From: a virus
Direction: 5' to 3' (one strand)
DNA length: 45,133 nt
IMG/VR virus record: IMGVR_UViG_3300042327_000473
Coordinates: 1 to 45,133 of that record
Within the stretch, counting starts at the first letter, position 1, and every line of letters begins with the position of its first letter. Shown one piece after another: positions 13,192 through 31,057 of the stretch. The position numbers were made by a program, and so were the translations under genes. The notes under the pieces were generated by a model. It was given only the letters and a program-made list of their open reading frames with translations, was not told the DNA's origin and did not search any database.

Positions 13192-13212
13192 CCACCTTTC
13201 GTGCGAAGGTGG
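13192..13212. terminator. Hairpin at end of plus-strand operon
   Basis: A perfect 7-bp stem CCACCTT/AAGGTGG with a 7-base loop, 7 bases after the stop of the last plus-strand gene, in the 138-base space between convergent operons. The T-run is weak (CGTTTCTC about 7 bases later), so it is only a probable terminator. The rest of the space (13213-13322) shows only a 23-codon frame (13239-13310), which I do not call. Confidence 0.5.
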
Positions 13213-13322
13213 TAGCACCGTTTCTCAATAAGCCCCAAATGGAACGCAACGCCAACAACGACAAACAAACCACCGCACGAACTTATTCAAGCAACTTAAC
13301 TTTGCTCTAATAGGTTGGTCTG

Positions 13323-13946
13323 TCAAGATAGGAACCACCAGACCGCTCCAATGCCACCAGAAGCCAAAGCGACAATCGTAAGACCAGAAATCTTCCACGA
13401 ACTAAATGCAGTTACCAGAATTCCGAATATCAATAACCCTAAACAAGCCGAACTCGCTTGGTACACTACTCTGGTCTTGGTTTCTTCTTTCGCTTTTAGT
13501 TCTGCTTGCAGTTTTAACGCATTGGCTTCGGATAGTTTCTTGTTTTGTGCCTCTACTTTTGCCCACAGTTCCGTTGTTTCTGCATCGACCTTGACGGCTT
13601 CAGCACGGTCTTTGACTACAGCCTTCTCGTCCTTCTCCTTAATGATACGCTGAAACTCAGCAACCTTAACAACTGACGGCTTGCTCAACCCGCTCAGTCT
13701 TTGGATTTGCCCTTCAATAATTTCTCTAGGGATTCCAGCAGGGAGGGCAGGAGTGACAGCAACGAGAGCAGAAGCAGACTCAGAGACGATTTCTTCGACC
13801 TTCTTGATGTACGAGTCTTTTTCATTATTGTTAGAAATTATGACAGGCTGGGTAGGTTCTACGGTTGAACACCCTGTTAAAATAAAGGTTACAAAGAGGC
13901 ATAGAAACACCCCCATTTGTAAACTTTTAAGCCATTTAGTTTGCAT
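13323..13946 (-). CDS. Lipoprotein with coiled coil and C-terminal membrane segments (unimolecular spanin candidate)
   Basis: A 207-residue protein. Residues 1-26 are a lipoprotein signal ending in the lipobox LTGC (Cys26, followed by Ser, which favours outer-membrane sorting). Residues about 90-160 form a charged Lys/Glu/Ala coiled coil. Residues about 163-182 and 186-205 are two hydrophobic segments, ending WWFLS. A lipid-anchored N-terminus plus a C-terminal membrane anchor is the layout of unimolecular spanins, which link and fuse the inner and outer membranes in the last step of lysis; those normally have one C-terminal segment. It is the last late gene, near the holin. A fragment of its start region is duplicated at 14566-14607. 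Confidence 0.6.
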   Translation of the reverse strand: MQTKWLKSLQMGVFLCLFVTFILTGCSTVEPTQPVIISNNNEKDSYIKKVEEIVSESASALVAVTPALPAGIPREIIEGQIQRLSGLSKPSVVKVAEFQRIIKEKDEKAVVKDRAEAVKVDAETTELWAKVEAQNKKLSEANALKLQAELKAKEETKTRVVYQASSACLGLLIFGILVTAFSSWKISGLTIVALASGGIGAVWWFLS

Positions 13947-13972
13947 AACTATTTTGTGGTTCTTTCAGTTCG
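13925..13972 (-). repeat. 48-bp direct repeat, copy 1
   Basis: Matches 14586-14633 at 46 of 48 positions. It spans the first 7 codons of the lipoprotein gene, the 2-base spacer and the last codons (Thr-Glu-Arg-Thr-Thr-Lys stop) of the 198-residue gene. The matching copy spans the same elements after the 547-residue gene. Confidence 0.9.
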
Positions 13973-14545
13973 GTATCCTCCACGCATAGGATAATCAATA
14001 GGTTCTTGAATGTTTTCATTTCTCCAACCTCTCATTTTCGCATCGTAATCAAGACCAGCCCTGTATGTAGGAGTGTCTCCAAAGTAATCGTACATACCAA
14101 ATGTAGCCATATTTAATGCTGGTTCTAAACCAGACTTAATTCTCAAACCGTAATCTTCAAGAGTTGAAGGGTCTCTTTTTTCTCTGTTGTAAAAATCGGT
14201 AAAGTTTTCGTTTCTTCTGTTAACTGCATCAATAGCAGTAAGACCACCGCCAACCGCAATTCCACCAAGACCTGCGTATTTTCCAAATGTTCTTGAATTT
14301 GGATTGTTTGGAGTAAAGTCAGTATGGTCACCGTGAAGTCCTCCTCGTGCATCAAATCTAAGCCCTGCTTGTTTTTGTAGAAACGCCCTACGAGCATTAA
14401 GGTCAACTTGTCTTTCAATTATTGCTTTTCCTTTTGCTATTGCCACCTCGTTGTCGTACTGTCTAAATGCTTTAATTTGTTCTGGAGTCAGACTCATTGA
14501 AGTATCGGGGGGTAAGTAAAAATTATATTCGTCAGGTATAGGCAT
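13949..14545 (-). CDS. Paralogue of the 547-aa virion-type protein (shortened copy)
   Basis: A 198-residue protein. Residues about 85-198 align with the end of the protein at 14610-16253: both have NFTDFY, then R-D-P-S, then L-R-x-K-S-G-L-E-P-A-L, a D-T-P-T-Y-R-A motif and the ending GGYRTERTT. The N-terminus (MPIPDEYNF) also resembles the longer protein from about residue 292 (VPSEYDF), so this looks like a copy missing the first half and an internal part. A Gly-rich hydrophobic stretch (AGLGGIAVGGGLTAI) could contact membrane. Function unknown; a minor virion or ejection protein is plausible from position. It begins at ATG after TACTACT, a context shared with two other late genes. Confidence 0.7.
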   Translation of the reverse strand: MPIPDEYNFYLPPDTSMSLTPEQIKAFRQYDNEVAIAKGKAIIERQVDLNARRAFLQKQAGLRFDARGGLHGDHTDFTPNNPNSRTFGKYAGLGGIAVGGGLTAIDAVNRRNENFTDFYNREKRDPSTLEDYGLRIKSGLEPALNMATFGMYDYFGDTPTYRAGLDYDAKMRGWRNENIQEPIDYPMRGGYRTERTTK

Positions 14546-14565
14546 AGTAGTATTAGTTTATTAGT

Positions 14566-14607
14566 TTATTTTGTTTTTGTAGAAATTTTAAGCCATTTAG
14601 TTTGCAT
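14566..14607 (-). pseudogene. Vestigial start of a lipoprotein gene copy (13 codons)
   Basis: After the 547-residue gene, the minus strand reads MQTKWLKISTKTK then TAA. The first 7 codons are identical to the start of the lipoprotein gene (MQTKWLK), and the 2-base spacing to the upstream stop is the same. It is a relic of a duplication that copied the gene junction, with the rest of the lipoprotein gene lost. Confidence 0.7.
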
Positions 14608-14633
14608 AACTATCTTGTGGTTCTTTCAGTCCG
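14586..14633 (-). repeat. 48-bp direct repeat, copy 2
   Basis: The partner of 13925-13972 (46 of 48 identical). Similarity fades on the left past the vestigial codons and on the right into diverged paralogous coding sequence. Confidence 0.9.
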
Positions 14634-16253
14634 ATAACCACCAATCATAGGGAAATCAATTCCTTGCTGTCTGTAAAGGGCTTCAGCACGGTCTTTTTGT
14701 TCTTGGTCAAGGTATGCTCTGTATGTAGGAGTATCCGCAATAGCGTCATAAGCACCAAGTGTTAAAGCACTTAGTGCTGGTTCTAAACCAGACTTAACTC
14801 TTAGCATCATATTTTCTTCAAGCGAAGGGTCTCTTCCTGTTCTTTCATAAAAGTCAGTAAAGTTTCTGTCTCTTCTATCAAGAGCATCAAAAGGAGTCAT
14901 TGCAACAGCCCCAGCAACACCCGCTTTACCTGCAAACCGCAGAGCACTTGCTCCAAGTTCAGCGTTAACCATACTTCTTGTCGCTGGGTTTTGAATATAG
15001 TTCCTAGCGAAATTTCTTGCTGTATCTGGATTGCTAAATCCTCTTTGCATTGTCGATAGGAACTGGTCTTCTTCAGCAAGCCCCTTGGCAACGCTAATAA
15101 ACGGCTTGTATGGTGCTGTCAGAAGGTCTGTTCCGACAAAACCTGCGTGACCTCCCTTGTGAACTCTTCCAAATTCTTTTGCCACAGGAGGTCTTAATCC
15201 CAAAAGTCTTTCCTTATTAACTTGCTGATTGTAAGTATACATCGCATTAAATGCGTCAAACAACCCATCTTGACCAAAAGGAACTGAAGCCATATCTGGA
15301 TATATCTTAGATACTTTTGAAAATGGATGGTCTGGAGTATCTCCTTCTACTGTAAAATCATATTCAGAAGGAACAGCCATTCTTCCACGAGGAGAATAGA
15401 AAAATCCTTCTTGCCCATTGCCACCCTTGATGGCTTCTAGAACATTATTGTGAAGTTCTGGAATTAATGTGTTATCAAGTCTTCCAGTTTTCATCATTGC
15501 TTGAAGAAGCAACTGTCTGTCGTACTGAGCACTTACATCTGCGTGTTGCATATCAAGCCAACGACCACGCATCTTTGCGTTTCTTGCCCAATCATATGCT
15601 TCGTCAATGTAATCTGGTGGATTTACGCCAAGATATTCTGGTTTTAATGATTGCCTTAACATTTCTCTGTCCATTTGTTCTGAAATGCCAGCAGTAAGCC
15701 TTGTGTCTTTTAAACCACGCATCCTATCAAACTCCATTTCGTAATATCTTTGGATATTAAGTTGCTGTTGTCTTAACGCCTTGTAATAGGCTGGGTCTTG
15801 TTTTGAGTTTACTACTTGAATGCCATTAGTGCCTGTAGGTCTTACAACACGACCATATGGACCTTCTCTCATAGGAGGAGCACCAGATGCTTTATGTGCA
15901 ATTCCTTCTGGTCCTAACTCTCTGTAAACCTGTTCATATGCTTTGATTGGAAGTGCAGACGGATGTGCAGAGGCTTCATACAAAATTGGTACATTTTTTG
16001 CGTTTCCAATTATTGGATTATCAGAATTGTATCCACGCATACTACCAACATCACCATCTCTTGTCAGATAGGTGCTGTCTGGATAACGAAAGTCAGTTCC
16101 AATGTTTCCCCATCTTTCTATTTTGTCTGGCGAAACAACATCAGCCCATCTTGATGGTCTAAGTGCTTCTCTTAAAGAAATTCGGTCATTTTCGATTGTA
16201 TCATAAACATCAAAAATTGCCTGTTTTGTTGGGTCGAATTCTAAATTAGCCAT
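14610..16253 (-). CDS. Hypothetical late protein, probable minor virion protein (547 aa)
   Basis: A 547-residue soluble-looking protein with no recognised domain. The N-terminal 300 residues are rich in Arg, Asp and Tyr with many short helices. Residues about 435-455 are Ala/Gly-rich and hydrophobic (LRFAGKAGVAGAVAMTPFDA). The C-terminal 110 residues are shared with the 198-residue gene just downstream. The 448-residue protein upstream of the terminase has a faintly similar Gly-rich stretch (LELGGGLYDVFGDNGVYMN), so the three may be related. It lies between holin and its paralogue, at the far end of the late operon after the giant gene. The ATG follows ACTACT with no Shine-Dalgarno sequence. 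Confidence 0.65.
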   Translation of the reverse strand: MANLEFDPTKQAIFDVYDTIENDRISLREALRPSRWADVVSPDKIERWGNIGTDFRYPDSTYLTRDGDVGSMRGYNSDNPIIGNAKNVPILYEASAHPSALPIKAYEQVYRELGPEGIAHKASGAPPMREGPYGRVVRPTGTNGIQVVNSKQDPAYYKALRQQQLNIQRYYEMEFDRMRGLKDTRLTAGISEQMDREMLRQSLKPEYLGVNPPDYIDEAYDWARNAKMRGRWLDMQHADVSAQYDRQLLLQAMMKTGRLDNTLIPELHNNVLEAIKGGNGQEGFFYSPRGRMAVPSEYDFTVEGDTPDHPFSKVSKIYPDMASVPFGQDGLFDAFNAMYTYNQQVNKERLLGLRPPVAKEFGRVHKGGHAGFVGTDLLTAPYKPFISVAKGLAEEDQFLSTMQRGFSNPDTARNFARNYIQNPATRSMVNAELGASALRFAGKAGVAGAVAMTPFDALDRRDRNFTDFYERTGRDPSLEENMMLRVKSGLEPALSALTLGAYDAIADTPTYRAYLDQEQKDRAEALYRQQGIDFPMIGGYRTERTTR

Positions 16254-16258
16254 AGTAG

Positions 16259-16561
16259 TTATTTCGCTTTTTGTATAAATTTTCTCCGCACATACTCAAA
16301 TAGTTCGGGTGCAATAGAGCCAGAAATAGAGCACAATACAGACTTGTACATCGGGTCAATGGAGACCCCATATAGGGCAAAGTAACTGATAATACCCACA
16401 ATGCCACCTGCAATGACTTTTCTTGTCCAGATGGCTATGTGGTACTCCTCGTTAGTTAAAATGAGCCTAGCAAGCATCCCAAGCCCTCCAAGGATAGCCA
16501 TAATCCAGCCACCCTTCTTGAAGTCCTCAAGGACAGCCTCCATTGATTGATTATCGGACAT
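16259..16561 (-). CDS. Holin-like membrane protein
   Basis: A 100-residue protein with hydrophobic segments at about 18-36 (GWIMAILGGLGMLARLILT), 49-67 (VIAGGIVGIISYFALYGVS) and 72-88, charged termini and a basic tail (RRKFIQKAK). Size, layout and the KKGGW-x-MAILGGLG start resemble the LydA-type phage holin family. It would let the endolysin pass or depolarise the inner membrane at lysis. It overlaps the end of the giant gene by 11 bases, and AAAGGG about 8 bases before the ATG could be a ribosome-binding site. The endolysin is in the plus-strand operon, so the lysis genes are split. Confidence 0.65.
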   Translation of the reverse strand: MSDNQSMEAVLEDFKKGGWIMAILGGLGMLARLILTNEEYHIAIWTRKVIAGGIVGIISYFALYGVSIDPMYKSVLCSISGSIAPELFEYVRRKFIQKAK

Positions 16562-19500
16562 ATTTTAACCCTTTCTGGGCAAACTCTTTTGCGAAAATTT
16601 CATCCACAGCATCCTGCTCGTGATGATAGTTGCCAATGTAAGCAGAGGCTGAGTTAAACAACTTGAACATCTGGTTACCATTTTCCTTTGTTCGGATAAT
16701 CTGATAGCCAAGTTTGTTTCGGATGATTTGCCAGTTCTGATAGTTCTGACCCTCAACCTGCACATTCTCAATGGCTTCAAAGTTGGTAATGTCTGCAAGT
16801 TTCTGTTCGTCTGGCGTAGGCTTAGGCAGGACAGGCTGGTCTCCAGCACTTGTGGGTGGCGGGTTTGCAACAGACGGAGAGTTCGGGTCTACTGTTGGGG
16901 TGACAGGTCTGTCCTTACTTGTGTAAAGCATATGTCCGTCCTTTGTGTAGGACAGGTCAAAGAACTCAGACAGTTTACTTACCATACTAGGCGTAATCAC
17001 CTTTGTCTTTTCAACAACCTGTCCGTTCTGGTTCACCCTAAAGTAAGCAAGTTCACCAAAGTCCTGCATCTGACCAGCAATTCTCTTAAGGGTACTAGAG
17101 TGTTCTGGCTTACCGCCAGACCTTTCATAGACCTCAATTACATCCTTAGCAAAAGCAGGGACAGAGGCTAGTGAGCCTAAGATAAATCCTTTGTTTTCCT
17201 TAGAGTAAGGAATGATTGTACCAAGCACCTTAACAGGGCTGAAATCATTCTGACCACCAGTAATCAAAGTCTGAGCGTGGCGAAGTTTGACAACATCATC
17301 TTCAATGAAGTGAGCCATAACTCTTGCTTGGGTAATGTCTCCGAATGTACCAATTTCAGAGGTAGGAATCTCAAGAAGTTTAGCACCATCAACCCCAACA
17401 AACTGCTCTCCCTTGAAGTACAGTTTATATCTGAAAGCAGATTTGCCGTCCTTCTGCTTGCCGTGTAGTTCTCTTTTGATAATGTATCTTCCATCATTAG
17501 AGTAACGAAGAGAGTCTGCCTTGGTAGCAATGTCTCCATCAGCCCAGTTAAGGTTTCCAAAATGAACTCCAGAATCAACCAAGGACAAAAGATGTTCCTT
17601 AGCAAAAGTCCTAGTTGCAATAAAGTTAGTTACCTCTGACTTGTATCTGGCAATTGAAGTTTCAACAGCCATTGTTGTAAGCAGTAGTTTTTCAATACGC
17701 TCGTGTTCAAGTCTGATAGTATCTTTGTCGTGTCCTGTGTAATCCAATGTGCCTTGGTCGGGGAACCAAGGAGTTCTTCCTTGATTCTCAGCATTAATAA
17801 GACCTTGAGCACGAGCCATACCTGCATTGTTTTCCAACGCTAGTCGTTCAACAACGCTGGCATTCAAGTTAACTCTTTCATTCAATGGCAACTTTTCATA
17901 CAAGACCTTGGCATATGGCATTTGGTCAAACATACTTGAGATGTTTCTTCTATCCATAGACTCCTGCAACTGGGCAAGGAACCCTTCCATTTCAGCAATA
18001 GACTGAATGGTCATTTTCTCTGTCTTAAAAGGCTTAGTCGAATCCTTGTTCTTAGGGTCAACTGCTTCGTATGACTTGGTAGCCTCTGTCAGATAAATAA
18101 ACCCATTCACATCCTTGGCATCCTGTAGCCAGTAAAAAGCCTGTTCAATATACTCCTTCTTCTGAACAAGTTTACCAATTTCCTCTGGAGACATTCCTTT
18201 AATCCTGTCTTGGAATTGAGCCTCTGTAATCCCTTCAAGGCGAATGTATGCATTGACTTGGTCTTGCCTTCTTCCTAGCACTAGGTCTAAAGCATCCTCT
18301 ACAAACCTAGTAACAAGAGCCTTTCTATTGGCTGGCAGGTCAAGGTTGTCCAAGATGCCAGACCTAAGCCGTTGGAGTTCCGACCAATGCTTTTGATTAA
18401 TAGTCTCCAACTTAGATGGAGGAATCGTGTACACATCATTAGGAACCAGCATCTTAATGATAAGGGCATCTTCCGCAGAGATAGGCAAATCTGGGTTAGC
18501 CATATGATACTTAGCCTTTTCTTCGGCAAAGAACATATAGTCAGCCAAGGTAGCCAGTCTTCTATCTTTCTCACCCCTAGCAATATCCTTTAGGACAGGA
18601 GAAGATTGGTCTGCAAGAGTCTTTTCACCACGGTTTGTGAAACCAATCTGCCACTCACTACCACTCCAGTCAAGGGGGTGCATTGAGCCATACAAATCGT
18701 AAGACACCTTGGGGAACGCCAAGTAAAGTTGATGTGTTCTAGGGTTGTTAGGAGTAACAATAAGACCAGCACTACTATAACCAAGAGCCTTGGCTCGTTC
18801 TTCAAACCGTTTAACAAACTCATTGTAACCCTTGGCTCGCTCTTCAGCGTGTGCTTTTTTCTCTATTAGAGACCTTTCACGCTGAATCAAATAGGCATCC
18901 ATATTAACTCTGCGTTGAATGATTTCGTCAATTACCCTTTGGTATTCTGGGTTGGTGTACTTAGCAATCTGTTGAGGAGAGATATCAACAGGAGGTTTTC
19001 CTGCATCGTGATGTGGGTATGTCCATCCTTCTGGCGTTTCAACAATGCCTGTGGACTTAATCAATTTTCTAAGAGGCTCTGCTCTAGCATCAAGGGACTC
19101 AAGTTTTTGCTTCAACACCCCCTGTTCTATTCTAATTTTCTCTATCTGTTTATACATCTCCCTCGTTGCTCTCCTGCTATTATTTCTGATAATAGTATTT
19201 CTTTCCACCGCATTGGTTGCGGTTAGGTCTGGAACTGGAACTTTAGGAGGAATGATTTCTTGTGCTTGAACATTTAGTTCATCTATTCTTGCTTGAACTT
19301 CATCCATCTGTTGCACCAATCTTTCAAGTGCTGGGTTGTTTTGTCTAAACTGCTCAACCTTATCCTTGTAATTAGTTACATCAAGAGTCTGGTTTATTCT
19401 GGCTTCAAGAGGTTTGATTTCTTTATTGAGGTCAAAAATTCTGCTTTCTAGATGTTTCTTTTGTGCGTTTATTGAAGCAATGTCACCAACAGTTGCTCCC

Positions 19501-22500
19501 TTCAACTCCAGTTCGTGTGCTTTAAATTCTAGAGCATCAACTTGAGCGTAAAGTCTCTGTACCTCCGCATAAAGGTTTTCAATCTTTACTTGCGTCTGAA
19601 CTAGGTCTCTTCCTTCTGCACCAATTTCGGTCATCCAAATCTCAGTCTTAAGGTTTTTGATAAACTTTTCGTCTGCTTGAATAGGAGTCAATGCACCTTC
19701 TTGCTTATCAAGCGAATGTTGGTCTTTTAGTTCTTGAAACTTCTTTCTGTGAACAGGGTCTTTCATCCACGCCTGTTCGTGCTGAGTAAACCTGTGGTCT
19801 TTTTGCACAAAATTAAGTTCCTCAATTAGGTCAAACTCTGGATTGCTTCTTACTCTTTCCATTCCAGCCCTAATCAAGTCATCATACAGAAGACCCCTTT
19901 CCTTATTAGCGTCTCTAAGGGCTTCTTGCACAAGCAACTTAATATCTTTTGGTCGTGCTTGAATTGGTCCACGCCAAGAAGCACTTCTTGGCTTCAACTC
20001 AGATTCGCCAGCCTTTCCAACAACTTCTTCTGCAAGTTTAGGGAATTTATTACGGTTAATTTCAACCCACTTAGTGAAACTAGGAAGTTCCATAGTGTAT
20101 CCGTGCCTTCTTGAAGCCTCCTTTTCAGTATAATACAACTCTGTTAGTTGCCACTCTGCGTTAGACATTCCTTCTGGACGAACAGGGCGTGGCTCTGGCT
20201 TGCTCTGTAGGTTTTCTGCACGAGCAATAAGAGTGTTGATTCTTTCTAGTGTACCAGCAGTCATACCACGCCAGTTGTCTTCAATAGTAAGAATGCCCTC
20301 TACGAATGCAGTTTGCATCTCAGAAAGGGTGACAAAAGACTGCTTCTTTCCAGCGACTCCTTCTGTGTCTGCTAGAAATCTGGGAGCCATAGACTTAGCA
20401 CCAACAAATCCTTCAAGGCTTTTCAAGTTGATAACCTTTTTGTAAGGGTTACCAGTCTTGTCTCCCTCTTGAATTGAAAACAAACCATCAATCCACTTGT
20501 TAGTAACCTTTTTGCCAGAAGCCTCTGCGTACTGTCTTACAAGGAAACGAAGTTTATCCTTGATTGTAGCAACATTATCTTTGTCTGCGTCTAAAAGAGT
20601 CTCAAGGTCTTGAGCAGACTTTTCCTTAACACCAAGGTCGGCTAGTTGTTTGTGATATTCATCACGCAATCTCTTGGCGTAAGCCATAGGAGTTTCTCCC
20701 TGTGCCATAGGAAGAGTTGTGTCTAGCCAGTTTTGAGTGTCGTAAGGCTTTCCGTCCTCATCCTTCCCAAGGAAAGACGCTCTCTCAAACCAAGCCTGTT
20801 GTAGGGCATCAGAATACTTGTCTAGTTCTGGGAATGCACCTAACTTATTTAACGCCACCTCAAGGGCATAGACCTTGTTCTGTGCGTTGGTTACATTTTG
20901 TTTTCTGTTCTTTAAGTCCTTAGAGACTTGAAGAGCAACTTCTTTGTACACCTGTGCTGGTTCGTAATCTTCATCAGAGTACACCTCTTTACCAAAAGCA
21001 TCCTTTTGTTTTCTGAGTTCTTTGTACTTCTTTTCAAACAGTTCACGAACTACGCTTTGTGTTTCTTCAAGTTGCTTTTGAAGTTCCTTAATCTTAGAAA
21101 GAGTACCAGTCTTTTTGTCTAAAACTCCAGCAATTCTTTTCTGTTCCTTTTCTTTGTGTTGCTGAATCTTGTAATGATGGTCTCGATAAATTTCCTTGAT
21201 GTAACTTTCAAAAGACTTTCTTGGCATAGTGCCTCTCTTTAGGTCGGCAATAGCCTTGCTCATATCCATAATAGAAGATGCGGTGCTAACAACATTAACG
21301 CCACCATCTCCATCTAGATGTAGAACAACACCTCTGTCTGTGGTTTGTTTACCTTTAAGTCTGGTGATTTTTTCACGCAGTTTAACCAGTTCGTCAAGAG
21401 TTGCCGTTTTCTTTTGAACTACCTTTTTACCCTTAGCATTCGTAACCATCTTCGCAACAACGCCATTAGCCAAGTCTTTTTCAAGGCTGGCAATCTGCTC
21501 AGAGGCAGGAATTTTAGAATCCCTAAACTCAACCTCATCAGTATGATGAGACATTGGTGCGTCATTTTCAGAAATTCTTACGGCAACAAAATATTCACCC
21601 TGCTTGTATAGGGCAAAGTTATCAAAAGTACTCTTCCCAAGCACGAACGACTTTGATTCTTCACCGCCAACTGTTTGTAGGTACTTAGAAAGAATGTAAC
21701 TCTTAGTTGGACCTTTAACTTCACCAAAGTTTCTAGACAAAGCCAATGCTGGCTGTCTTTTGTTTACCATATGGGTAGCCTCTCTCAAAAACCTTTTGAT
21801 ATTTTCCTGTCTGACAACTGCACTTTCTACGGTTTTACCAAAACCACCAACCTGTTCCTTAATCATTGGAGAAGAAATGATGACTTCACCAGTTCTAATA
21901 TCTCTTAATGTAAGGGCAGAAGTGTTTAGACCAGTACCTTCTTCTAGTACCTTGAAGTGAGTGCCTTCAAAGTGCCAAAGATTCATAGCATCAATATTGG
22001 TAAGTCCGTCACCCTTACCCACAGCAACCACAAAACGGCTATTTCTACCGCCTTCGTGCGTCCAATTAATTCCTTCAAAGCCACCATCTTCTAGTTCTTT
22101 CAACGCTTTAAGAAGATTTTCCTTAACTACCTTTGCAGTATCAATGACAATGCCTTCGCCAAGAACGCCTCCTTCGTTAACAAGTGAGTAGAAAAGTCTT
22201 ACGCTTTCAGCAATCGCTTCATATGAACCCAATGTAAGTTCTCCTTTTTTGGCTTGTTCGTAAAGATTTGCTCTAACAAAATCTGCAATTTCAGCATAAG
22301 TCCGACCCTTGCTAAGTTTTCCTTTCTTCAAATCTATCTGAATGTCGGAAGCAATAAGAGTATCCATTACACGCTCGTGGAATTCTGCCGTAACCATACC
22401 CTTAATGTTGTCAGAGTGGTGTCTAAACAATGCACGAGTAACTTCAGCCTCTGCTTTAATGTCTCTGTAAATGTTGTTAGTTTTAAGCAACTGACTTCTT

Positions 22501-25500
22501 TCCTTCGCACCCATAGTGCTTGTGCGAATGGTCTCAAAAAGAAACGCCTTTGTTTTTTCAGCAAAAGCAACTCTCATTGCCTGTTCATCAATGATGCTCA
22601 TTGAACCCTTGTCACCATTGTCTACCTGTTTAGCCAACTGCTGGTCTAGAAGGAAGAATATGTCCTTTTGAACATCGTCAAATTTCTTGTAAAACTTTTT
22701 GATTCCTCCGTGCTTTCCAAATAGGTCATTAAGAACACTCTGGTTGTCTTCCAACTGAAGCCATTCCGCTGTCTTGCCAGCCTTAACAGCCTCAAGATAT
22801 TCTGGGATTGCTTTAAAAATCTGGTAATCTCTTTCGCTCATTTCTGCAATGTGCGACAGCATAGGAATGCCACTCTGTTCAATCTTTTCTTTTGTAAGGA
22901 AACCCTTTCTGAATCTAGCAAGAACCGTGTCTCTTACTTTGAGTACATTCTTATGGTAATCTTTACCAAAAGCCCTGCCCTTAATAGAACTTTCAACTAC
23001 TCCATTTTTGCTAACTCCAAGGAGTGCAATGTCAGCAATCTCACCTAGGATTTTATTAGAAACAAGATGGGGCAACTGTTTTCTTAATGCACTAATTGTG
23101 TACTCTCTAAGTTGTTTTGCAATTTCCAGTCTTTGCTGGGGGTTGAATTTATCAGCATTTTGCTTGGCTGTTAGTTCTCCAACCTTGTCTAGTTGTTCTT
23201 GAACAAGAAGGTCTAATCCTTCTTCGGTAATACGCTTAGGATTTTCAATAACAGTAACACCATCAGCACCAACAACCCAATTCAAGAAAGCCTCATTAAT
23301 CTTAGTCGTATCAGATAGACCTCTAATTTTCTGTTCAAGTACTTCTGAGATAGTCTTTGGAGGATTGTTTGTCCCATTCTTAGGCTTCTTTGCAGGACTG
23401 AACGCAAAGTAGTTAGCCTCACTTCGTCTTGAAACATTTTCAATAAAACGATTGTTATCAAGCAAGCCTACAGCGGAACTTGTGATTTCAGAAACTGGAT
23501 TATGGTACTGGTATTCAATAGACTGAACTCCGTGTTTCTTCATAAACTTTACAGTTTCTGGAGTGAACAGCCAAAGGTCGTAATCAAATCCTTCTTTTGC
23601 AAATATGTCCGTCTTAGAGTTAAACAACTCTCCAATCGTAACTCCTTCACCTGTGTCAATAGTAAGCAATTCTGCAAGAATGCTCTTCTTATCAACACCA
23701 GACAGACTGGAAATTCTGTCTACAAGCACTCCAACAACAGACTCAACAGGAGAGTTAGAATGAATGTCGCTAATGTCAATGTGTCGCTGGGTGTCAATGT
23801 ACCCTGTCTTCATTGAACCATTGCTCACCATTGATGCTTGACCCATATCTGGGGTGTAGTGCAACCAACCAGTCGGGGAGTAGTACTCACCGCCTCTTGC
23901 ACCAAATCTAGAGGCAAGACCTTCGCTAACATAATCGTATACGGAAGAGCCGTTAATAGGAGTATGGGTAGAGTGTGGCTTGTTTAGGGTATATACAGAA
24001 AGGATTTCTCCGTCCTTGTTTCTGTAAACGGTGTTAGCAAGTGCAGACAATTCAGAACTAGACAATGGATTGCCTTCGTGGTCTCGCTTGGACTTTGCAG
24101 GGCTATGATTGTACTGGCTTCTGACATAGGCAGAATTCCAATCCACACCAAAGCCTTCACCAGCCCTTACCTTGATTGAACCCATTCGTCTAATGTTCAT
24201 ATCAAACACCACATCTGGAAGAACAATTTTACCTGCTTTTGACTCAAGGGCATAACCGCTATTCTGAAGTTTCCATCTTGGATTGGAGTGTTCTCCTGTG
24301 CGAATCATTTCCTTTGTAGGATGGAACCCAATTACAGCGTTAACAATAGTCCGCATATGACCAGCATCTCTTGCCCCAACTGCACCATTCTTCATAAACA
24401 TTCTAACACCCGCTTCAGCAGTTTCACTATTAGAGTAGTGAGTTAGCATATCCTTAATCGACTGATAAAGAGCAGACTTGGTTTCAAATAGTTTTCTAAC
24501 CGTCTTCCAACTCATACCTGTTTCATTCCAGTTATTCCAAGCGTAATCAATACGAGTCAGCAACGCATCGTGGTCAACTGACTTTACTAGAATCTCAGCA
24601 CCACCAACTTCAGTTTCAAATACTCCATCAACCATCTTCTTGGTTCTTTCAAAGTAAAGATTGATTTCAACAGGAATGAAATTCGTGTGCCTAATTTCGT
24701 TGTTGCCAGAAACTCTTGAGCCATCGGCTTCTTCTCTTTCTTTGGCAATGTATTCAGTTTTAGCAATGTTAGAAACATTCTTTCCAAACACACCTTCTCT
24801 TGCCATTTCAATAATGGTGTTAAGTTGTGCAAACCTTGCTACCGTGTTGGCTGGAAGATAGTCAGAAAGGATTTTAAGTTCTGCGGTTGTTGCCTTGCCT
24901 GTAAGTCTAACACGAGGGTTACCCTCCCATACGCTTTCCCAGAACTTTCTTCGCTTATCTACAGACCATTGACCAGCACCACTCACATCATCTCCAGCAA
25001 CAGATTCTGCTTCTGGAATTGCGGAACCAACATCTTCATCTAGACCCATTTCACGCTTAGGAGTACGCCAATGTGCTCTTAGGTCATCCCTGTTAGGAAG
25101 ACGATTGAACTTTGGCTTGCCTCCGTCAGCAGGTTTATTGTTCTTCTTCTCTTTCTTTGGCTTAGAATAACGACCAACTTCTACCTCTTGACCGCCAGCG
25201 TTCTTTCCAATAACAGAAATTTCAAGCCCTCTGTCTTTGATATCAAGTTCCATCAAGCCCCTCATCACGCCCTGCATAGCAACGGCAGATTCTTTCTGAA
25301 GAACACTTTCTGCTATTCTGACTGATGTTCCGTCAGCGTTAGTTGTCCAAAGATGTTCCAACTGACTGGCTACGCCTATTTCAATACCCTTTGATTTTCT
25401 GGGGTTAACCTTCCAGCCTTGGTACATATCTCTTGAAGCCCTTTGAACAAAGTGTTGCATCAACTTTTCAAGTTTAGGAATGCGAACTCTTTGACCTGTC

Positions 25501-27728
25501 TTTTGGTCAAGGAAGAAATGGTCAATGTTTGTACCGAAATTAAATCTAGCACCAGCCTGTGTTAGGTCTGAGTGCATTGTGTTCTGATACGAATCCTTGG
25601 CTAGTTGAATGGCGTTTCTAATAACACCAAGGTCTCCACCCTTAAGCAGATAATCAATAGGCTTATCTTCAATAAATCTGTTCCAATATGAAGCAAGGAA
25701 CTCTTCAAAAAGACTGTGCAACTTTCCAGTAGTTTCCGTGCCTTGCTTAAAGTTTTGAATTACTTCATCCCAATGAGCACGAACTTTGTCAGAATGACCC
25801 TGTTCGTTTGTCATTGTACCATTGGCATTTTCAAGACCAAGGTAGGATTCTTTAAATTGTTCAAGAAGTGCTACAGCCTTTTCCTTAGGCATTCTAAGCA
25901 ACGCACCCTTATGGTCGGAAGTTCCAATTAATGCTTCCATTGCATCTTGATGGAATACCTCACGGTATCTTTCATCTAGCATAAGCGTGTGGAAAAGTTC
26001 TTCCTTTACTGCGGATTTAACAGCCCTGTCAGCGTTAATGATAGTAACCTTTTCTCCGTTCATCTTTTGTCTAAACGCAACACCGCCCCACTTGTCTGCG
26101 TTTTTCAACATAAACTGTTCGTATTCAGCCCACTCAACATCTGTCATTCTGCGTTTAATTTCGTCTTCTGTCAGAATGAGTCTGCGGGTATCTCTTGCCA
26201 GACGCTCTGAAGAGGCAATGTCAGACATAACTTCAAGTTTTGCTCTCTCCGCACCGCCCTTGTTGTCAGCATAGTCTCTTTCAATGTTGGTAAACAACCT
26301 ATGCAAGCCCTGCTGATTGGCTAGGTCGTAGTGTTGGGTAGCCCAAAGAAACTCTTTTACTACAGCACTTGGACCACCACCACCAGAAACCGTGTTGTGG
26401 AACGCACCAATCTGGTGGAACGCACCGCCAAGTACAAATCCAGAACCAATGCCGTTATAGAATCCCTCTTCGCCACCAAAGGTAAAACCAAACGCACCGC
26501 CATACATACCAGCGTGAAGCGTTGTCTTTACCGAGTTAGTGCTCCATTCAAGGAACGGAGACCCTGTCTTAGCCCAAGTGCCAGCCATAGCCGACACCAT
26601 AGGGTTGGAAGACTCCATCGCCATTCTCTCAGACAATCTCATACCTTGGAACTTCGGGGCTTCTTTAGAAAGTTTAGCACCTAGTTCTACCGTTTCTGCA
26701 CCAGCCTGTAGCAATTTCATACCACCCCAAACAAGGGAAGTTGTATCCCAAGCAGGAATCTTAACTTGGTTAAATCCAGAAGCAGTCATAGCACCTCTAG
26801 TAAGGTCTTCCTTGGCAACAATCTTACCTGTGTCTCCAACGAAAGCCCTAATGCCAAACATTGTGTGAAGATTTTCAAGCAACTCTTCTTCTACTTTTAC
26901 AATACCAGCCGCAACTCTTCCAGCCTTAGCACCTGCACCCTTGGCAACGCCCTCAATGCTGTTCAAAGACCAATGAGTTACATTAGCCAACTGAGCGTTT
27001 AGAGCCAGAATGTTGTTTGCTCTGCTGGCTCCCTTAACAAGGGCAGATTCAATGCCAAAGTTAGGAGCAACCCAAGATGGGTCTGCAACATAACTGACAG
27101 CCATAACAACAGCAGGATTCCACAGGTCAAATTTAACACCAGCAACCTCAACTTCCTTTGGCAAGAAATACCCATTCTGAGTTCTGCCTTCAATTTCTTG
27201 TCTCAAATCCAACATAGACATTAGATTCGAATAATACTCTTCATCGCTCTTGCTGGATTTATACAGCATCTTATGGATGAAACTGTCTTCATTGAACTGA
27301 CCTTCCTTGTACATATAGTACCAATTAGCAGTTCCCATAATTGCTCCCTCAACAAGTGAGCCAGCAATCTTTGGGACTTTTAGCGTTACCGCATCTCCAA
27401 GGAGTTCATATGCACCTTCGCCTAAATCTGAGGCGGTTTGTGCCATTGCCTGTCCAACCGTGCTAAACATATCCACCTCCCTCTTTGCCATAAAATCCCT
27501 ATACAATAGAGCCTCCTTGAAGTTAGGTCTAGCACCTGTGGTTGTAAATCTGGCAATCATTCCAGCAACAGCCTCTCCATCCATTTCGGTCTGGGGTGGC
27601 TCTAGAGCGTCTTCCGTAGGAGTCTCTGGGTCTTCTACTACAGGTTTTGGAGGAATGATAAGACCATACTGTTGAGACAGTCTTTCAAGTTCTTCTGGAG
27701 AGGAATAGTTATAATTTTGGGGTTCCAT
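16551..27728 (-). CDS. Giant polyvalent-like virion/ejection protein (3,725 aa)
   Basis: One uninterrupted gene covering a quarter of the genome. It starts in a TAATG junction with the preceding gene. Visible parts: a Pro-rich N-terminus (about 1-50); Gly/Ala-rich hydrophobic stretches at about 85-130 and 400-445 that could insert in membrane; KEELFH near residue 578, a possible degenerate zinc-peptidase helix; a Lys/Asn/Pro linker near 870-900; a segment at about 1265-1420 (YYSPTGWLHYTP ... FDYDLWLF) faintly like ADP-ribosyltransferase domains of polyvalent proteins; coiled coils at about 2190-2295 and 2705-2880; and a Pro-rich linker before a final small domain from about 3640. Size and mosaic layout fit phage large polyvalent proteins that enter the host with the DNA. 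I find no RNA polymerase signature by eye, although the N4 virion polymerase is of similar size. Confidence 0.75.
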   Translation of the reverse strand: MEPQNYNYSSPEELERLSQQYGLIIPPKPVVEDPETPTEDALEPPQTEMDGEAVAGMIARFTTTGARPNFKEALLYRDFMAKREVDMFSTVGQAMAQTASDLGEGAYELLGDAVTLKVPKIAGSLVEGAIMGTANWYYMYKEGQFNEDSFIHKMLYKSSKSDEEYYSNLMSMLDLRQEIEGRTQNGYFLPKEVEVAGVKFDLWNPAVVMAVSYVADPSWVAPNFGIESALVKGASRANNILALNAQLANVTHWSLNSIEGVAKGAGAKAGRVAAGIVKVEEELLENLHTMFGIRAFVGDTGKIVAKEDLTRGAMTASGFNQVKIPAWDTTSLVWGGMKLLQAGAETVELGAKLSKEAPKFQGMRLSERMAMESSNPMVSAMAGTWAKTGSPFLEWSTNSVKTTLHAGMYGGAFGFTFGGEEGFYNGIGSGFVLGGAFHQIGAFHNTVSGGGGPSAVVKEFLWATQHYDLANQQGLHRLFTNIERDYADNKGGAERAKLEVMSDIASSERLARDTRRLILTEDEIKRRMTDVEWAEYEQFMLKNADKWGGVAFRQKMNGEKVTIINADRAVKSAVKEELFHTLMLDERYREVFHQDAMEALIGTSDHKGALLRMPKEKAVALLEQFKESYLGLENANGTMTNEQGHSDKVRAHWDEVIQNFKQGTETTGKLHSLFEEFLASYWNRFIEDKPIDYLLKGGDLGVIRNAIQLAKDSYQNTMHSDLTQAGARFNFGTNIDHFFLDQKTGQRVRIPKLEKLMQHFVQRASRDMYQGWKVNPRKSKGIEIGVASQLEHLWTTNADGTSVRIAESVLQKESAVAMQGVMRGLMELDIKDRGLEISVIGKNAGGQEVEVGRYSKPKKEKKNNKPADGGKPKFNRLPNRDDLRAHWRTPKREMGLDEDVGSAIPEAESVAGDDVSGAGQWSVDKRRKFWESVWEGNPRVRLTGKATTAELKILSDYLPANTVARFAQLNTIIEMAREGVFGKNVSNIAKTEYIAKEREEADGSRVSGNNEIRHTNFIPVEINLYFERTKKMVDGVFETEVGGAEILVKSVDHDALLTRIDYAWNNWNETGMSWKTVRKLFETKSALYQSIKDMLTHYSNSETAEAGVRMFMKNGAVGARDAGHMRTIVNAVIGFHPTKEMIRTGEHSNPRWKLQNSGYALESKAGKIVLPDVVFDMNIRRMGSIKVRAGEGFGVDWNSAYVRSQYNHSPAKSKRDHEGNPLSSSELSALANTVYRNKDGEILSVYTLNKPHSTHTPINGSSVYDYVSEGLASRFGARGGEYYSPTGWLHYTPDMGQASMVSNGSMKTGYIDTQRHIDISDIHSNSPVESVVGVLVDRISSLSGVDKKSILAELLTIDTGEGVTIGELFNSKTDIFAKEGFDYDLWLFTPETVKFMKKHGVQSIEYQYHNPVSEITSSAVGLLDNNRFIENVSRRSEANYFAFSPAKKPKNGTNNPPKTISEVLEQKIRGLSDTTKINEAFLNWVVGADGVTVIENPKRITEEGLDLLVQEQLDKVGELTAKQNADKFNPQQRLEIAKQLREYTISALRKQLPHLVSNKILGEIADIALLGVSKNGVVESSIKGRAFGKDYHKNVLKVRDTVLARFRKGFLTKEKIEQSGIPMLSHIAEMSERDYQIFKAIPEYLEAVKAGKTAEWLQLEDNQSVLNDLFGKHGGIKKFYKKFDDVQKDIFFLLDQQLAKQVDNGDKGSMSIIDEQAMRVAFAEKTKAFLFETIRTSTMGAKERSQLLKTNNIYRDIKAEAEVTRALFRHHSDNIKGMVTAEFHERVMDTLIASDIQIDLKKGKLSKGRTYAEIADFVRANLYEQAKKGELTLGSYEAIAESVRLFYSLVNEGGVLGEGIVIDTAKVVKENLLKALKELEDGGFEGINWTHEGGRNSRFVVAVGKGDGLTNIDAMNLWHFEGTHFKVLEEGTGLNTSALTLRDIRTGEVIISSPMIKEQVGGFGKTVESAVVRQENIKRFLREATHMVNKRQPALALSRNFGEVKGPTKSYILSKYLQTVGGEESKSFVLGKSTFDNFALYKQGEYFVAVRISENDAPMSHHTDEVEFRDSKIPASEQIASLEKDLANGVVAKMVTNAKGKKVVQKKTATLDELVKLREKITRLKGKQTTDRGVVLHLDGDGGVNVVSTASSIMDMSKAIADLKRGTMPRKSFESYIKEIYRDHHYKIQQHKEKEQKRIAGVLDKKTGTLSKIKELQKQLEETQSVVRELFEKKYKELRKQKDAFGKEVYSDEDYEPAQVYKEVALQVSKDLKNRKQNVTNAQNKVYALEVALNKLGAFPELDKYSDALQQAWFERASFLGKDEDGKPYDTQNWLDTTLPMAQGETPMAYAKRLRDEYHKQLADLGVKEKSAQDLETLLDADKDNVATIKDKLRFLVRQYAEASGKKVTNKWIDGLFSIQEGDKTGNPYKKVINLKSLEGFVGAKSMAPRFLADTEGVAGKKQSFVTLSEMQTAFVEGILTIEDNWRGMTAGTLERINTLIARAENLQSKPEPRPVRPEGMSNAEWQLTELYYTEKEASRRHGYTMELPSFTKWVEINRNKFPKLAEEVVGKAGESELKPRSASWRGPIQARPKDIKLLVQEALRDANKERGLLYDDLIRAGMERVRSNPEFDLIEELNFVQKDHRFTQHEQAWMKDPVHRKKFQELKDQHSLDKQEGALTPIQADEKFIKNLKTEIWMTEIGAEGRDLVQTQVKIENLYAEVQRLYAQVDALEFKAHELELKGATVGDIASINAQKKHLESRIFDLNKEIKPLEARINQTLDVTNYKDKVEQFRQNNPALERLVQQMDEVQARIDELNVQAQEIIPPKVPVPDLTATNAVERNTIIRNNSRRATREMYKQIEKIRIEQGVLKQKLESLDARAEPLRKLIKSTGIVETPEGWTYPHHDAGKPPVDISPQQIAKYTNPEYQRVIDEIIQRRVNMDAYLIQRERSLIEKKAHAEERAKGYNEFVKRFEERAKALGYSSAGLIVTPNNPRTHQLYLAFPKVSYDLYGSMHPLDWSGSEWQIGFTNRGEKTLADQSSPVLKDIARGEKDRRLATLADYMFFAEEKAKYHMANPDLPISAEDALIIKMLVPNDVYTIPPSKLETINQKHWSELQRLRSGILDNLDLPANRKALVTRFVEDALDLVLGRRQDQVNAYIRLEGITEAQFQDRIKGMSPEEIGKLVQKKEYIEQAFYWLQDAKDVNGFIYLTEATKSYEAVDPKNKDSTKPFKTEKMTIQSIAEMEGFLAQLQESMDRRNISSMFDQMPYAKVLYEKLPLNERVNLNASVVERLALENNAGMARAQGLINAENQGRTPWFPDQGTLDYTGHDKDTIRLEHERIEKLLLTTMAVETSIARYKSEVTNFIATRTFAKEHLLSLVDSGVHFGNLNWADGDIATKADSLRYSNDGRYIIKRELHGKQKDGKSAFRYKLYFKGEQFVGVDGAKLLEIPTSEIGTFGDITQARVMAHFIEDDVVKLRHAQTLITGGQNDFSPVKVLGTIIPYSKENKGFILGSLASVPAFAKDVIEVYERSGGKPEHSSTLKRIAGQMQDFGELAYFRVNQNGQVVEKTKVITPSMVSKLSEFFDLSYTKDGHMLYTSKDRPVTPTVDPNSPSVANPPPTSAGDQPVLPKPTPDEQKLADITNFEAIENVQVEGQNYQNWQIIRNKLGYQIIRTKENGNQMFKLFNSASAYIGNYHHEQDAVDEIFAKEFAQKGLKYVR

Positions 27729-29788
27729 TATTTGGATTTCTTGGGTTCCATCTCACGCTTTTTTAGTTCTTCAAATGTAGGAATGCCAGCCTTATCTGCG
27801 ATTTTCATCAGTTCTTTGATTTCTTCAGCGTGTGCCTTTTCATCTATCTGTTCATCCATTTTAATCTTAAGACCAATACCAGCCCCGCCACCAAGAACCT
27901 TCAAAGCAACAACTCTCTTCATAGCATTAACAATCTTAATCATTGTTTCTGGAAGAACATTAGACATAAACGAAGCGTCTGTAACCATTGCAGTAAGTCT
28001 TGCATTGTCCTTGTCGGTCTCCTGTCCGCTCGCAATAAAGAACTTTCTGTATGTTTGAGCCTGTAGGGAAAGGTTGCCGTATTCACTCTGGTACTTAGGC
28101 ATAAACTTAAACCCAGTTGGGGTTTCTTTAATCATCTTTACCATTTCATTGCCAATTCTGTTAATGTCTACGACTACAGGAATGCCTTCTTGGAAGTTCT
28201 TCAATGCATCAAGAGGGTCAGCACTCATAAGGTCTGTTGCCTTTGTACCAGCAGGAACGGAAATAGTGAATCCTGCTCCCTTTTCACCAAATCGAACTCC
28301 CTTTGCATAATTTGCAAGAAGGTTGTTAGCACCCCGCATCTTCAAATCAAATTCGGTTTTGATTTCAGCAGGAGTCTGAACGCCCATTGCATTAGCGGGA
28401 GTCATTGTTTTACCATCAAGGCTAACAAATTGCTGACCTGTAACTGGGTTTGTATGAACAGGCATCATTCCGTTTCCGTTTAACAGCAAATGAGTTTGGA
28501 AAGAGAACGGCATCGTTTGCTTATTCTTTGCAAGTTCTGCTCTTACTTTTTCGTACCTTGCTCGCTCTTGCAATAGAGGAGATATTGTAACTGTAGTTTT
28601 TTCAGTAGGTGTGTACTTTTCTTTTCCAGTAATCTCAATATAGCCTTTCTTAAACTCAACGCCTTTAGGCAAAAGGCTAAATCCGTAATCAGTACTTGTT
28701 TTTTGAAAGAACTTTTTGTGCGTTTCAGTTTGCTTTTCTTTACTCGGAGCAAGCATTTCTGTTGCAACCTTATACGCCATATTAATGTTAGGAAATGGGT
28801 CATCAGCACCCTTTGGAATAAGTTTGTCGTAATTTTCTTGCGTAATAACACCCTGCCCAAGGGCTTCAGAAAATGCGGACTTAATAAACTTCCTAGTTGC
28901 TTGAGCGTCAATTTCTAGGTTTTGCTTAAGTTCTAGGCTTGGGTTAAAAGGAACCTTAGGGTTACCTGCAAAATGATTAGCAACAGCGTATCTTGGGTAA
29001 TCGCCTTCTCTTGCCGTAACTTCTGCTTTCTGTTCTGCTGTAAGCAAGTCTGACTTCTTAATACCAGTAGCCTGTAGTGCTTGGTCAATAAATGCATTTC
29101 CTACTGCCAATGTTCCGTCTGCATTAAAAATGTTGCCTACATCAAGTTCTTGAACCGCTCCATTTCCTGTAATAGTTGCCGTTGTTTCGCTAATATCCAG
29201 AGGAGTTTCAGACACTCTTTGAGAGAGAGCCAACTTATCTCGCATCTCTTTCTTTTCTAGTTCAGATGCGTTAAATTGCCTTACTGCTAAAGCATTATTA
29301 TCTTCTGCAACTTTAATTCTTCTTCCTTCATTAGTATTAGCAATGGTCTGTTGTTCTTCTTTCTTGAACACATCTTCATTCATTGCCCACGCCTTTAGGT
29401 CTTCAGTACTAATACGAGCCAGACCAGAAGACGCAGTTGTCTCTGGGTCTTGCATATTACCACCACCAAGTTTAAAAACCTTCTTAAGCAGTTCGTTACT
29501 ATGTGCAGGAGTTGTAGGCTTAATTACATAATCCAGTTGCCCAGAGTCACCATTGTCGTCATTTGGCTTTTCTTCCTGTACAAGATACTTTGAAAGATTT
29601 TGGTACGCTATAGCAGAAAGCGTGTTGTGTTCGCTCTGGGCTTGCCTGTATGCACCAACAGCATTACCAATGCCACCACCAAGGTCAGACAGACCTTTTC
29701 TTAGAGCCTCTGCACCTTGTGCGTGTGAGGGTAAAATATTTACCTGCGGAACTTGTTCGCTAGTATACTTTGAAAATGGACTAGGCAT
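27728..29788 (-). CDS. Probable internal virion/ejection protein (686 aa)
   Basis: Not recognised by motif. The N-terminus (about 1-75) is Gly/Ala-rich and helical: GAEALRKGLSDLGGGIGNAV then GAYRQAQ, a pattern common at the start of podovirus internal core proteins. A charged helical region follows (about 150-200), then a long mixed region, and residues about 640-686 are Lys/Glu-rich. It lies between the 281-residue candidate and the giant gene, the position of ejection proteins in T7- and P22-like late operons, and is coupled by TAATG to the giant gene. Role inferred from context. Confidence 0.65.
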   Translation of the reverse strand: MPSPFSKYTSEQVPQVNILPSHAQGAEALRKGLSDLGGGIGNAVGAYRQAQSEHNTLSAIAYQNLSKYLVQEEKPNDDNGDSGQLDYVIKPTTPAHSNELLKKVFKLGGGNMQDPETTASSGLARISTEDLKAWAMNEDVFKKEEQQTIANTNEGRRIKVAEDNNALAVRQFNASELEKKEMRDKLALSQRVSETPLDISETTATITGNGAVQELDVGNIFNADGTLAVGNAFIDQALQATGIKKSDLLTAEQKAEVTAREGDYPRYAVANHFAGNPKVPFNPSLELKQNLEIDAQATRKFIKSAFSEALGQGVITQENYDKLIPKGADDPFPNINMAYKVATEMLAPSKEKQTETHKKFFQKTSTDYGFSLLPKGVEFKKGYIEITGKEKYTPTEKTTVTISPLLQERARYEKVRAELAKNKQTMPFSFQTHLLLNGNGMMPVHTNPVTGQQFVSLDGKTMTPANAMGVQTPAEIKTEFDLKMRGANNLLANYAKGVRFGEKGAGFTISVPAGTKATDLMSADPLDALKNFQEGIPVVVDINRIGNEMVKMIKETPTGFKFMPKYQSEYGNLSLQAQTYRKFFIASGQETDKDNARLTAMVTDASFMSNVLPETMIKIVNAMKRVVALKVLGGGAGIGLKIKMDEQIDEKAHAEEIKELMKIADKAGIPTFEELKKREMEPKKSK

Positions 29789-29795
29789 AATTTAT

Positions 29796-30641
29796 TTAGG
29801 TTTGACCCCATTTTCCTCCTTTAGCAAATCCACCGCTTAAAGAATTTCCAACACCACTCATAAAACCGCCAATCATAGATGCGTTGTTAGATGCTGTTGC
29901 AGTTCTAGCCTGTAGTTCAGCATTATAGTTACTAGAGTTAATGTTCTGAGCCATCTGGTCTTGTGGGTTAATGTACTGTGGACCAAGGCTTTGGTTCATA
30001 CCCATAGCGTTAGACGCAATGCCAGTAGGACTAAAGCCCTGCATCATACCCTGCATCATAGGAGCACCATACTGAGCGTAACCCTGTCCCGCAATATTCA
30101 TATCATTGCCAAGAACTTGACTAGCAAAACCTCTCGACCTGTCTTCACGAATATTACCTAACTGGTAATTATTCATAACTTCTTGTGCAACTGCTTGATT
30201 ACCAGAAAGACCTCTAGCCGTCATAGCCTCTCTAGCCGACTGTTGACCATACCTCTGCATCTCATCAGTAAGACCTCTTCCAGCATTAAGACCAGCAACA
30301 GCCTGTTCACGCATTGTGTTCTGTAGGGCTTGCCCACCGCCAAGAGAAGACTCGTAAGCGGTTCTACTAGCCAGTCCAAGAGGAGCCATAGCGTTAGCAC
30401 CCATCTTGGTGGCATACTGTCCAGCCAACTTAGAAAACGGGTCCATTACCTCACCGTAAAATGTCTGGAGGTTATTAGCCTGTCCACGCATCTGCTCCAA
30501 CTGCAACTGTTGCCATTGAGGAACGAGTTTACGCTCGGCATCCAGCATCATAGGAGCCATATCGATTTGTGCTCGCATCGTATCCATCGATTCCTTGTAG
30601 TAATCACGAGGAGGTGGTGCGTTAACTTTTGTAGAACCCAT
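29796..30641 (-). CDS. Probable internal virion protein, Met/Gln/Gly-rich (281 aa)
   Basis: The protein begins MGSTKVNAPPPRDYYKESMD and has a helical part (about 20-75) rich in Gln, Met and Leu. A long Gly/Ala/Gln/Met-rich stretch follows (SSLGGGQALQNTMREQAVAG, MMQGMMQGFSPTG), ending in a Gly-rich tail (FMSGVGNSLSGGFAKGG). Such composition is typical of small podovirus DNA-ejection proteins that pass through the tail. The start shares a TAATG with the upstream gene. Function inferred from composition and position. Confidence 0.65.
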   Translation of the reverse strand: MGSTKVNAPPPRDYYKESMDTMRAQIDMAPMMLDAERKLVPQWQQLQLEQMRGQANNLQTFYGEVMDPFSKLAGQYATKMGANAMAPLGLASRTAYESSLGGGQALQNTMREQAVAGLNAGRGLTDEMQRYGQQSAREAMTARGLSGNQAVAQEVMNNYQLGNIREDRSRGFASQVLGNDMNIAGQGYAQYGAPMMQGMMQGFSPTGIASNAMGMNQSLGPQYINPQDQMAQNINSSNYNAELQARTATASNNASMIGGFMSGVGNSLSGGFAKGGKWGQT

Positions 30642-31057
30642 TAGTTTTTAAGATTTATAGTGTGAGGTTTTGAAAGTTTAATGATATTATCACCCTTTTG
30701 ACACCACAGTTGACAACTTGGGTCACTCTCTATCAAGGGGAATTTCTGGCAAATGTTGGTGCAAATCTTGCTTCTGGCAAGTGGATTGTCAACTAAGGCA
30801 TCCATAATGAAGTAATCGGTAGGTGTATCTTTGTGTCCGCATCGTCCTAGTACCTGTGCTAGTGTTGGAGTTTCGTTAAACTTACCTACTGGGTAGATAA
30901 CTACCACCCCATCAACCTTGCCGTTTTCAGTATTTGTAAACAAGAAGCCGTTCTTGTCTGCCCACCTTAACCACTCCTCCAGATGTATGATATCAAAACA
31001 AACTCGCTTGCCAGAATTTCTTTTGGCTTTTACGAAACTTGTTAATCCTTCAAGCAT
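30641..31057 (-). CDS. Hypothetical late protein (138 aa)
   Basis: A compact alpha/beta protein (HLEEWLRWADKNGFLFTNTE, then VDGVVVIYPVG) with five Cys residues in the C-terminal half, including SKICTNIC and SCQLWC. The strand-turn-strand pattern and the later NPLARSKI segment are faintly like GNAT-fold phage proteins such as T7 gp13, which is also 138 residues and located among internal virion genes. I see no clear match. TAATG junctions occur at both ends. Confidence 0.6.
   Translation of the reverse strand: MLEGLTSFVKAKRNSGKRVCFDIIHLEEWLRWADKNGFLFTNTENGKVDGVVVIYPVGKFNETPTLAQVLGRCGHKDTPTDYFIMDALVDNPLARSKICTNICQKFPLIESDPSCQLWCQKGDNIIKLSKPHTINLKN

Follow-up and report, generated by a model that had tools for sequence, protein, structure and literature searches.

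A giant cysteine-free phage protein without a recognisable polymerase as the probable largest member of an ejection set

Results

A giant gene in the late region

The stretch of viral DNA analysed here (45,133 bases, hereafter the window) encodes a 3,725-residue protein that carries no polymerase. It is likely to belong to a set of three ejection (internal virion) proteins in a short-tailed phage and to be the largest of them. The protein is very probably packed in the head and ejected with the DNA, an attribution based on gene order, on the absence of cysteine as judged against control proteins, and on co-divergence with the tail and ejection module. Our best reading is an ejectosome protein of the large polyvalent type without a polymerase.

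The gene occupies 16551..27728 on the minus strand, runs from ATG to stop over 3,725 codons and takes up 24.8% of the window. An earlier note, made from the letters alone, had described a single frame of this length filling a quarter of the genome, which is borne out exactly, but on the minus strand. Because the other two minus-strand frames hold 163 and 412 stops across the same interval, the giant frame is no chance ORF; it is also open at full length among relatives of 31–89% identity. Its start codon shares bases with the stop of the 686-aa gene upstream (junction TAATG), and at the 3' end it runs into the next gene (16259..16561). The ends of the window abut in a 46,341-bp relative (G001), so the window is essentially a complete, circularly permuted genome.

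In the order of minus-strand transcription, the genes encode an HNH protein, a 448-aa protein, the large terminase (TerL), portal, scaffold, major capsid protein (MCP), tail proteins, a tail-fibre candidate, proteins of 281, 686 and 3,725 aa, a holin-like protein, proteins of 547 and 198 aa, and a lipoprotein. TerL, portal, fibre, holin and lipoprotein are named from order, motifs or N-terminal likeness, without a family match. The giant is the third of three overlapping or adjacent late genes, and the features of this neighbourhood are as follows.

42455..43801, minus strand: Cys-free 448-aa gene preceding TerL, which may belong to the delivery module
40860..42464, minus strand: large terminase, assigned from order and N-terminal likeness to a gene of phage C75C1
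36274..37305, minus strand: major capsid protein (phrog_1328)
32316..33947, minus strand: 543-aa tail or head-closure-like protein (PHROG Hc3, virion structural)
29796..30641, minus strand: Cys-free 281-aa gene in the place of N4 gp52 / T7 gp14, putative first ejection protein
27728..29788, minus strand: Cys-free 686-aa gene that corresponds in size and position to N4 gp51 / T7 gp15, putative second ejection protein
16551..27728, minus strand: Cys-free giant gene of 3,725 aa, putatively encoding the largest of the ejection (internal virion) proteins
16259..16561, minus strand: holin-like protein of 100 aa, with 95% identity across the swapped module
14610..16253, minus strand: 547-aa gene, 0 Cys, with a constant C-terminal domain of ~110 aa and a variable N-terminus, candidate co-delivered cargo
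13949..14545, minus strand: 198-aa gene, 0 Cys, second copy of the C-terminal domain of the 547-aa gene

Tail-fibre features are seen in the gene at 31057-32316. A tail-fibre reading of the 547-aa gene was dropped, its constant part being C-terminal and the fibre features lying in that other gene. The early region holds RusA, exonuclease VIII-like, O-like, DnaC-like and Erf-like genes, and among the window genes scanned none was recognised as an RNA or DNA polymerase. The capsid protein is 24–28% identical to capsid proteins of podoviruses and similar phages, and from this likeness the phage is probably short-tailed, with podovirus morphology. On the strand opposite to the holin-like gene, window positions 11077-11490 encode a 137-aa candidate endolysin, whose N-terminus is signal-like and which weakly matches a transglycosylase PHROG.

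Relatives of the giant protein

Iterated IMG/VR searches recovered full-length relatives of 3,467–3,836 aa, with identity down to about 31%, in at least nine other uncultured phage lineages. The closest (L001, L002) are 89% identical to the giant, followed by L003–L007 at about 60%, L029 at 43%, L031 and L035 at 39%, and L032, L033, L034, L036 and L037 at 31–36%; L045 (3,467 aa) and L052 (3,836 aa) are more distant. The giant has no DNA or translated match among 50,697 cultured-phage records, no relatives among GTDB genomes, and none among PDB sequences, matches of the coiled-coil type aside. The family is new to the collections searched, while its kind, the giant ejected protein, is known from N4.

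Three of these records have peculiarities of their own. In L051 the giant gene reads as two ORFs (2770-3648, 293 aa; 3705-14162, 3,486 aa), through a frameshift, an assembly error or a real split. The ejection operon of L035 includes a Cys-rich 267-aa gene (7181-7981) whose N-terminus resembles a PAPS reductase by eye (SGGKDS motif). Contig G004 (IMGVR_UViG_3300010970_000150, 88,287 bp; L033) has two large terminase genes that differ from each other (82% and 65% identity to the window's) and lie 43.6 kb from one another; the record apparently joins two related phage genomes.

Absence of cysteine

The giant has no cysteine in 3,725 residues, whereas about 38 would be expected at the rate of the other genes and 45 given its own codon-position composition; the mean in the other window genes is 1.03% (103/10,036, the 281- and 686-aa companions included). 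The same holds for the families. Over ten lineages the giants contain 3 Cys in 36,325 residues, and the 281- and 686-aa families contain 0 in 3,138 and 1 in 7,520, respectively. Known ejection proteins served as controls: gp50, gp51 and gp52 of N4 and gp7, gp20 and gp16 of P22 all lack cysteine, as do gp15 and gp16 of T7, where gp14 has one. Six further Schitoviridae virion RNA polymerases (vRNAPs; seven with N4) and, where fetched, their neighbours in the gp51 and gp52 positions are likewise Cys-free, as is the vRNAP of RPP1. By contrast, polymerases, terminases and tail proteins contain 0.5–1.4% Cys. The property is not exclusive to ejected proteins, being shared by the T7 scaffold, the window scaffold and the N4 coat protein. 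The lack of cysteine in vRNAPs has been noted before and may ease passage through the tail and periplasm (PMC3715699, PMC3915230). Checked against N4, T7 and P22, it offers an inexpensive marker by which ejected proteins can be spotted in uncultured phages.

Co-divergence with the tail and ejection genes

The window and G001 are 91–95% identical in DNA over the early region, the head genes and HNH, and 92% over some 22 kb. Proteins of the conserved part include TerL and MCP (both 98.5% identical), portal (92.7%), scaffold (94.7%), the holin-like protein (95%) and the lipoprotein (95.7%). A second set has diverged between the window and G001 or the sister contig L007: the 257-aa (53%), 543-aa (57%), fibre (35%) and 138-aa (45%) proteins, the 281-aa (64%), 686-aa (37%) and giant (58%) ejection proteins, and the 547-aa (42%, C-terminal part only) and 198-aa (33%) proteins. 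The 448-aa protein is 35% identical in G001, and its flanking genes 97–98%. The diverged set thus comprises the tail and ejection genes plus three more Cys-free genes (448, 547 and 198 aa), which are separated from the diverged block by well-conserved genes. Such joint divergence may reflect exchange or joint adaptation of a delivery module with a presumed functional link among its members. Comparing two near-identical phages in this way flags further candidate delivered proteins.

Regions of the giant protein

Within the giant, the following regions were distinguished.

26379..26516, minus strand: Gly-rich low-charge stretch GMYGGAFGFTFGGEEGFYNGIGSGFVLGGAF, residues 405-450, proposed membrane-inserting segment
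25629..26186, minus strand: zincin-like region, residues 515-700, HExxH absent
25989..26006, minus strand: KEELFH motif, residues 575-580
23379..24029, minus strand: ART-like region by eye, residues about 1234-1450
18879..20231, minus strand: coiled coil, least conserved part, residues 2500-2950
16551..18791, minus strand: moderately conserved C-terminal region, residues 2980-3725

Of the features reported in the earlier note, the Gly-rich stretch, the KEELFH motif and coiled coil (here around residues 2740-2900) are all present. Conservation in the protein peaks at residues 405-450, of which 62% are invariant in five lineages; over ten lineages the segment is nearly invariant, and its 16 Gly in 45 residues were reached by none of 1,000 composition shuffles. 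No strong classical transmembrane segment is found in the giant (best KD19 1.35). Weak Pfam and PDB matches (DUF1664, EmrA, ferritin and others) were read as coiled coil or noise.

Residues 395-1475 were modelled from twelve sequences at a pLDDT of 55, an earlier model from four close sequences (pLDDT 36) having been discarded. In the zincin-like region the model places three strands, a helix with KEELFH and a later helix with FEEFLASYW, at a local pLDDT mostly of 55–80. The motif varies across relatives (EELFH, AEFFH, GELFH), E576 being replaced by A or G; what persists is E577, H580 and, further downstream, E675/E676. HExxH is missing in all ten lineages, and HExxxH with a downstream Glu does not occur here either. 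Against a profile of eight vRNAP zincins the KEELFH windows rank top with a score of 26.8, other windows staying below 21 and 1 of 200 shuffles scoring as high. The profile alignment puts H580 on the first His of HExxH, in which case the catalytic Glu and the second His are lost. Under either alignment of KEELFH, the predicted zincin site is incomplete, and the motif looks like a zincin remnant. The second, M90-like zincin of RPP1/V12, tried as a template for the giant, gave noise.

Polyvalent ADP-ribosyltransferases (ARTs) carry a signature of strand-1 His, strand-2 Tyr and strand-5 Asp (H-Y-D) (PMC5512222). The ART-like segment that the earlier note proposed is visible by eye, but its strand-1 His position holds S, T, G, D or P in every lineage aligned and its acidic residue is variable. 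Profile-profile comparison with five vRNAP ARTs stays at noise level, 29 of 100 shuffles scoring as high. Pfam gave no match on the giant or any family member (ART-PolyVal, M90, MPTase, LPD and vRNAP_dom included); run on control vRNAPs, this search does pick up vRNAP_dom, ART-PolyVal and M90.

A Foldseek search of the 395-1475 model against BFVD returned five proteins of uncultured phages (E 1.6e-14 to 9e-6, TM up to 0.25), three of which are named NAT_SF, large polyvalent protein associated, or ART-PolyVal-like, the ART name being borne by a single match. Coming from a mediocre model (pLDDT 55), these matches suggest a distant kinship with large polyvalent proteins, not domain identity. Nothing significant was found in the PDB; the top five entries are all the HExxxH peptidase MATCAP (E ≥0.55, probability ≤0.09).

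Comparison with known ejection systems

The vRNAPs of N4 (gp50) and other Schitoviridae (3,240–3,760 aa) share with the giant their size, the last place among three late genes (gp52-gp51-gp50), the lack of cysteine in all three products and a zincin-like region. They differ in that the giant has no polymerase domain, no profile similarity to them and no HExxH; in the location of the zincin-like region (near residue 576, as opposed to about 1,940–2,520 in vRNAPs); and in genome size (45 kb here, 67–78 kb for N4-type vRNAP phages). T7 likewise has three adjacent late genes of rising size (gp14-gp15-gp16), gp15 and gp16 being Cys-free, but the giant is 2.8 times larger than gp16, has no lysozyme or transglycosylase match and shows no sequence similarity. 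The sets read 281-686-3725 aa here, 150-644-3500 in N4 and 196-747-1318 in T7, small, medium and large after the tail genes. No profile similarity links the giant, 686- and 281-aa proteins to the N4, T7 or P22 ejection sets (hhalign probability ≤0.4%).

With the large polyvalent phage proteins (Iyer et al. 2017, PMC5512222) the giant has in common a multi-domain giant chain in a late virion operon and the Foldseek matches to proteins so named; unlike them it has no recognisable active enzyme domain and no Pfam LPD, ART-PolyVal or MPTase match. Phage C75C1 (OQ984151) has a distantly related capsid (26%) and, in a comparable position, a 2,769-aa hypothetical giant that is Cys-free together with the next two genes, but the giant proteins lack detectable similarity (hhalign 0.9%). 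These unrelated large proteins of C75C1 (L010), all annotated hypothetical, lie at 38751..7576 (2,769 aa), 7573-8700 (375 aa) and 8707-12738 (1,343 aa).

Discussion

The earlier note had called the giant a multi-domain ejected effector. An ejected virion protein in the internal-virion-protein position, comparable to the N4 giant and probably of the large polyvalent kind, agrees with gene order, the absence of cysteine with controls, co-divergence and the BFVD matches; the enzyme domains find no such support, with no HExxH, no strand-1 His and no Pfam match. Active effector enzymes within residues 395-1475 are not supported. It is improbable that the giant is an active multi-enzyme polyvalent effector, ejected with the DNA and using ART and peptidase domains to modify or cleave host proteins early: the named polyvalent proteins among the BFVD matches (E 1.6e-14 to 9e-6), the zincin-like order of strands and helices and the fall of the best zincin-profile window on KEELFH speak for it, but the HExxH is missing in all ten lineages, the polyvalent-ART His is missing and the acid not conserved, the ART profile is matched by 29 of 100 shuffles, and Pfam is silent where controls match. 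A vRNAP like N4 gp50, diverged beyond recognition, would explain the equal size, position, three-gene layout and lack of cysteine. We rejected this identity as extremely improbable, since vRNAP_dom, found in controls at 1e-46, is absent from the giant, the hhalign probability is at most 0.4%, and the motif B and C patterns of single-subunit RNA polymerases are lacking; the replication genes found are also of host-dependent types.

An internal core or scaffold protein retained in the capsid or tail, not ejected, would fit the long coiled coil and the Cys-free scaffold and some capsid proteins, yet head genes are 93–98% conserved between the near-identical phages while the giant tracks the tail and ejection genes, and it directly follows two other Cys-free genes; we regard this as unlikely. 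That the giant is a tail adhesin or a tape-measure-like tail component is very unlikely, even though it diverges along with the tail genes and has one weak TMP_4 match (E 0.05): no tail-fibre or tape-measure family is matched, the fibre features belong to the gene at 31057-32316, and no long-tail gene set was recognised.

For the favoured reading, an ejection protein without a polymerase, the N4 model offers a template, with three sequential ejection proteins, a beads-on-a-string giant and a lipid-binding NTD (PMC12633501). A translationally coupled late operon would supply the 281-, 686- and 3,725-aa proteins, which would be packed in head and tail. When the phage adsorbs, they would pass down the narrow tail in a more or less unfolded state, in the order 281, 686, 3,725, the first two building a conduit across the outer membrane and periplasm. 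The giant would enter last and lodge its Gly-rich segment (~405-450) in the inner membrane, and the rest would reach the cytoplasm as a beads-on-a-string chain that helps to draw in or receive the DNA. The zincin-like, and possibly the ART-like, regions may be what is left, in degenerate form, of a large polyvalent protein, retained for a structural or binding role. We infer packaging, ejection, order, membrane insertion and pulling from what the sequences display directly, namely the ORF, its conservation, gene order, absence of cysteine and of catalytic signatures, and co-divergence with tail and ejection genes.

The N4 chain combines giant size with an RNA polymerase, which makes it hard to tell what its other 2,400 residues do; a Cys-free family of the same size and position without the polymerase would allow a direct test of what giant ejection proteins do. 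Tentatively, and with more doubt than confidence, we suggest that giant ejection proteins of 3.5–3.8 kaa form a family independent of the N4 polymerase line, with catalysis lost or never present, in which the giant injected chain is itself useful for genome entry, and which is swapped between near-identical phages as one module with variable Cys-free cargo sharing a constant C-terminal domain.

Genes with this domain of ~110 aa, downstream of the giant and Cys-free, encode products of 198–946 aa with variable N-terminal parts. They occur in the window (14610-16253, 13949-14545), L002 (15448-16833), L007 (21446-23896) and L037 (21266-24103), have no Pfam match and are candidates for polymorphic cargo. 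In L002, whose giant is 89% identical to that of the window, the downstream constant-domain gene shows no more than a weak match outside the domain.
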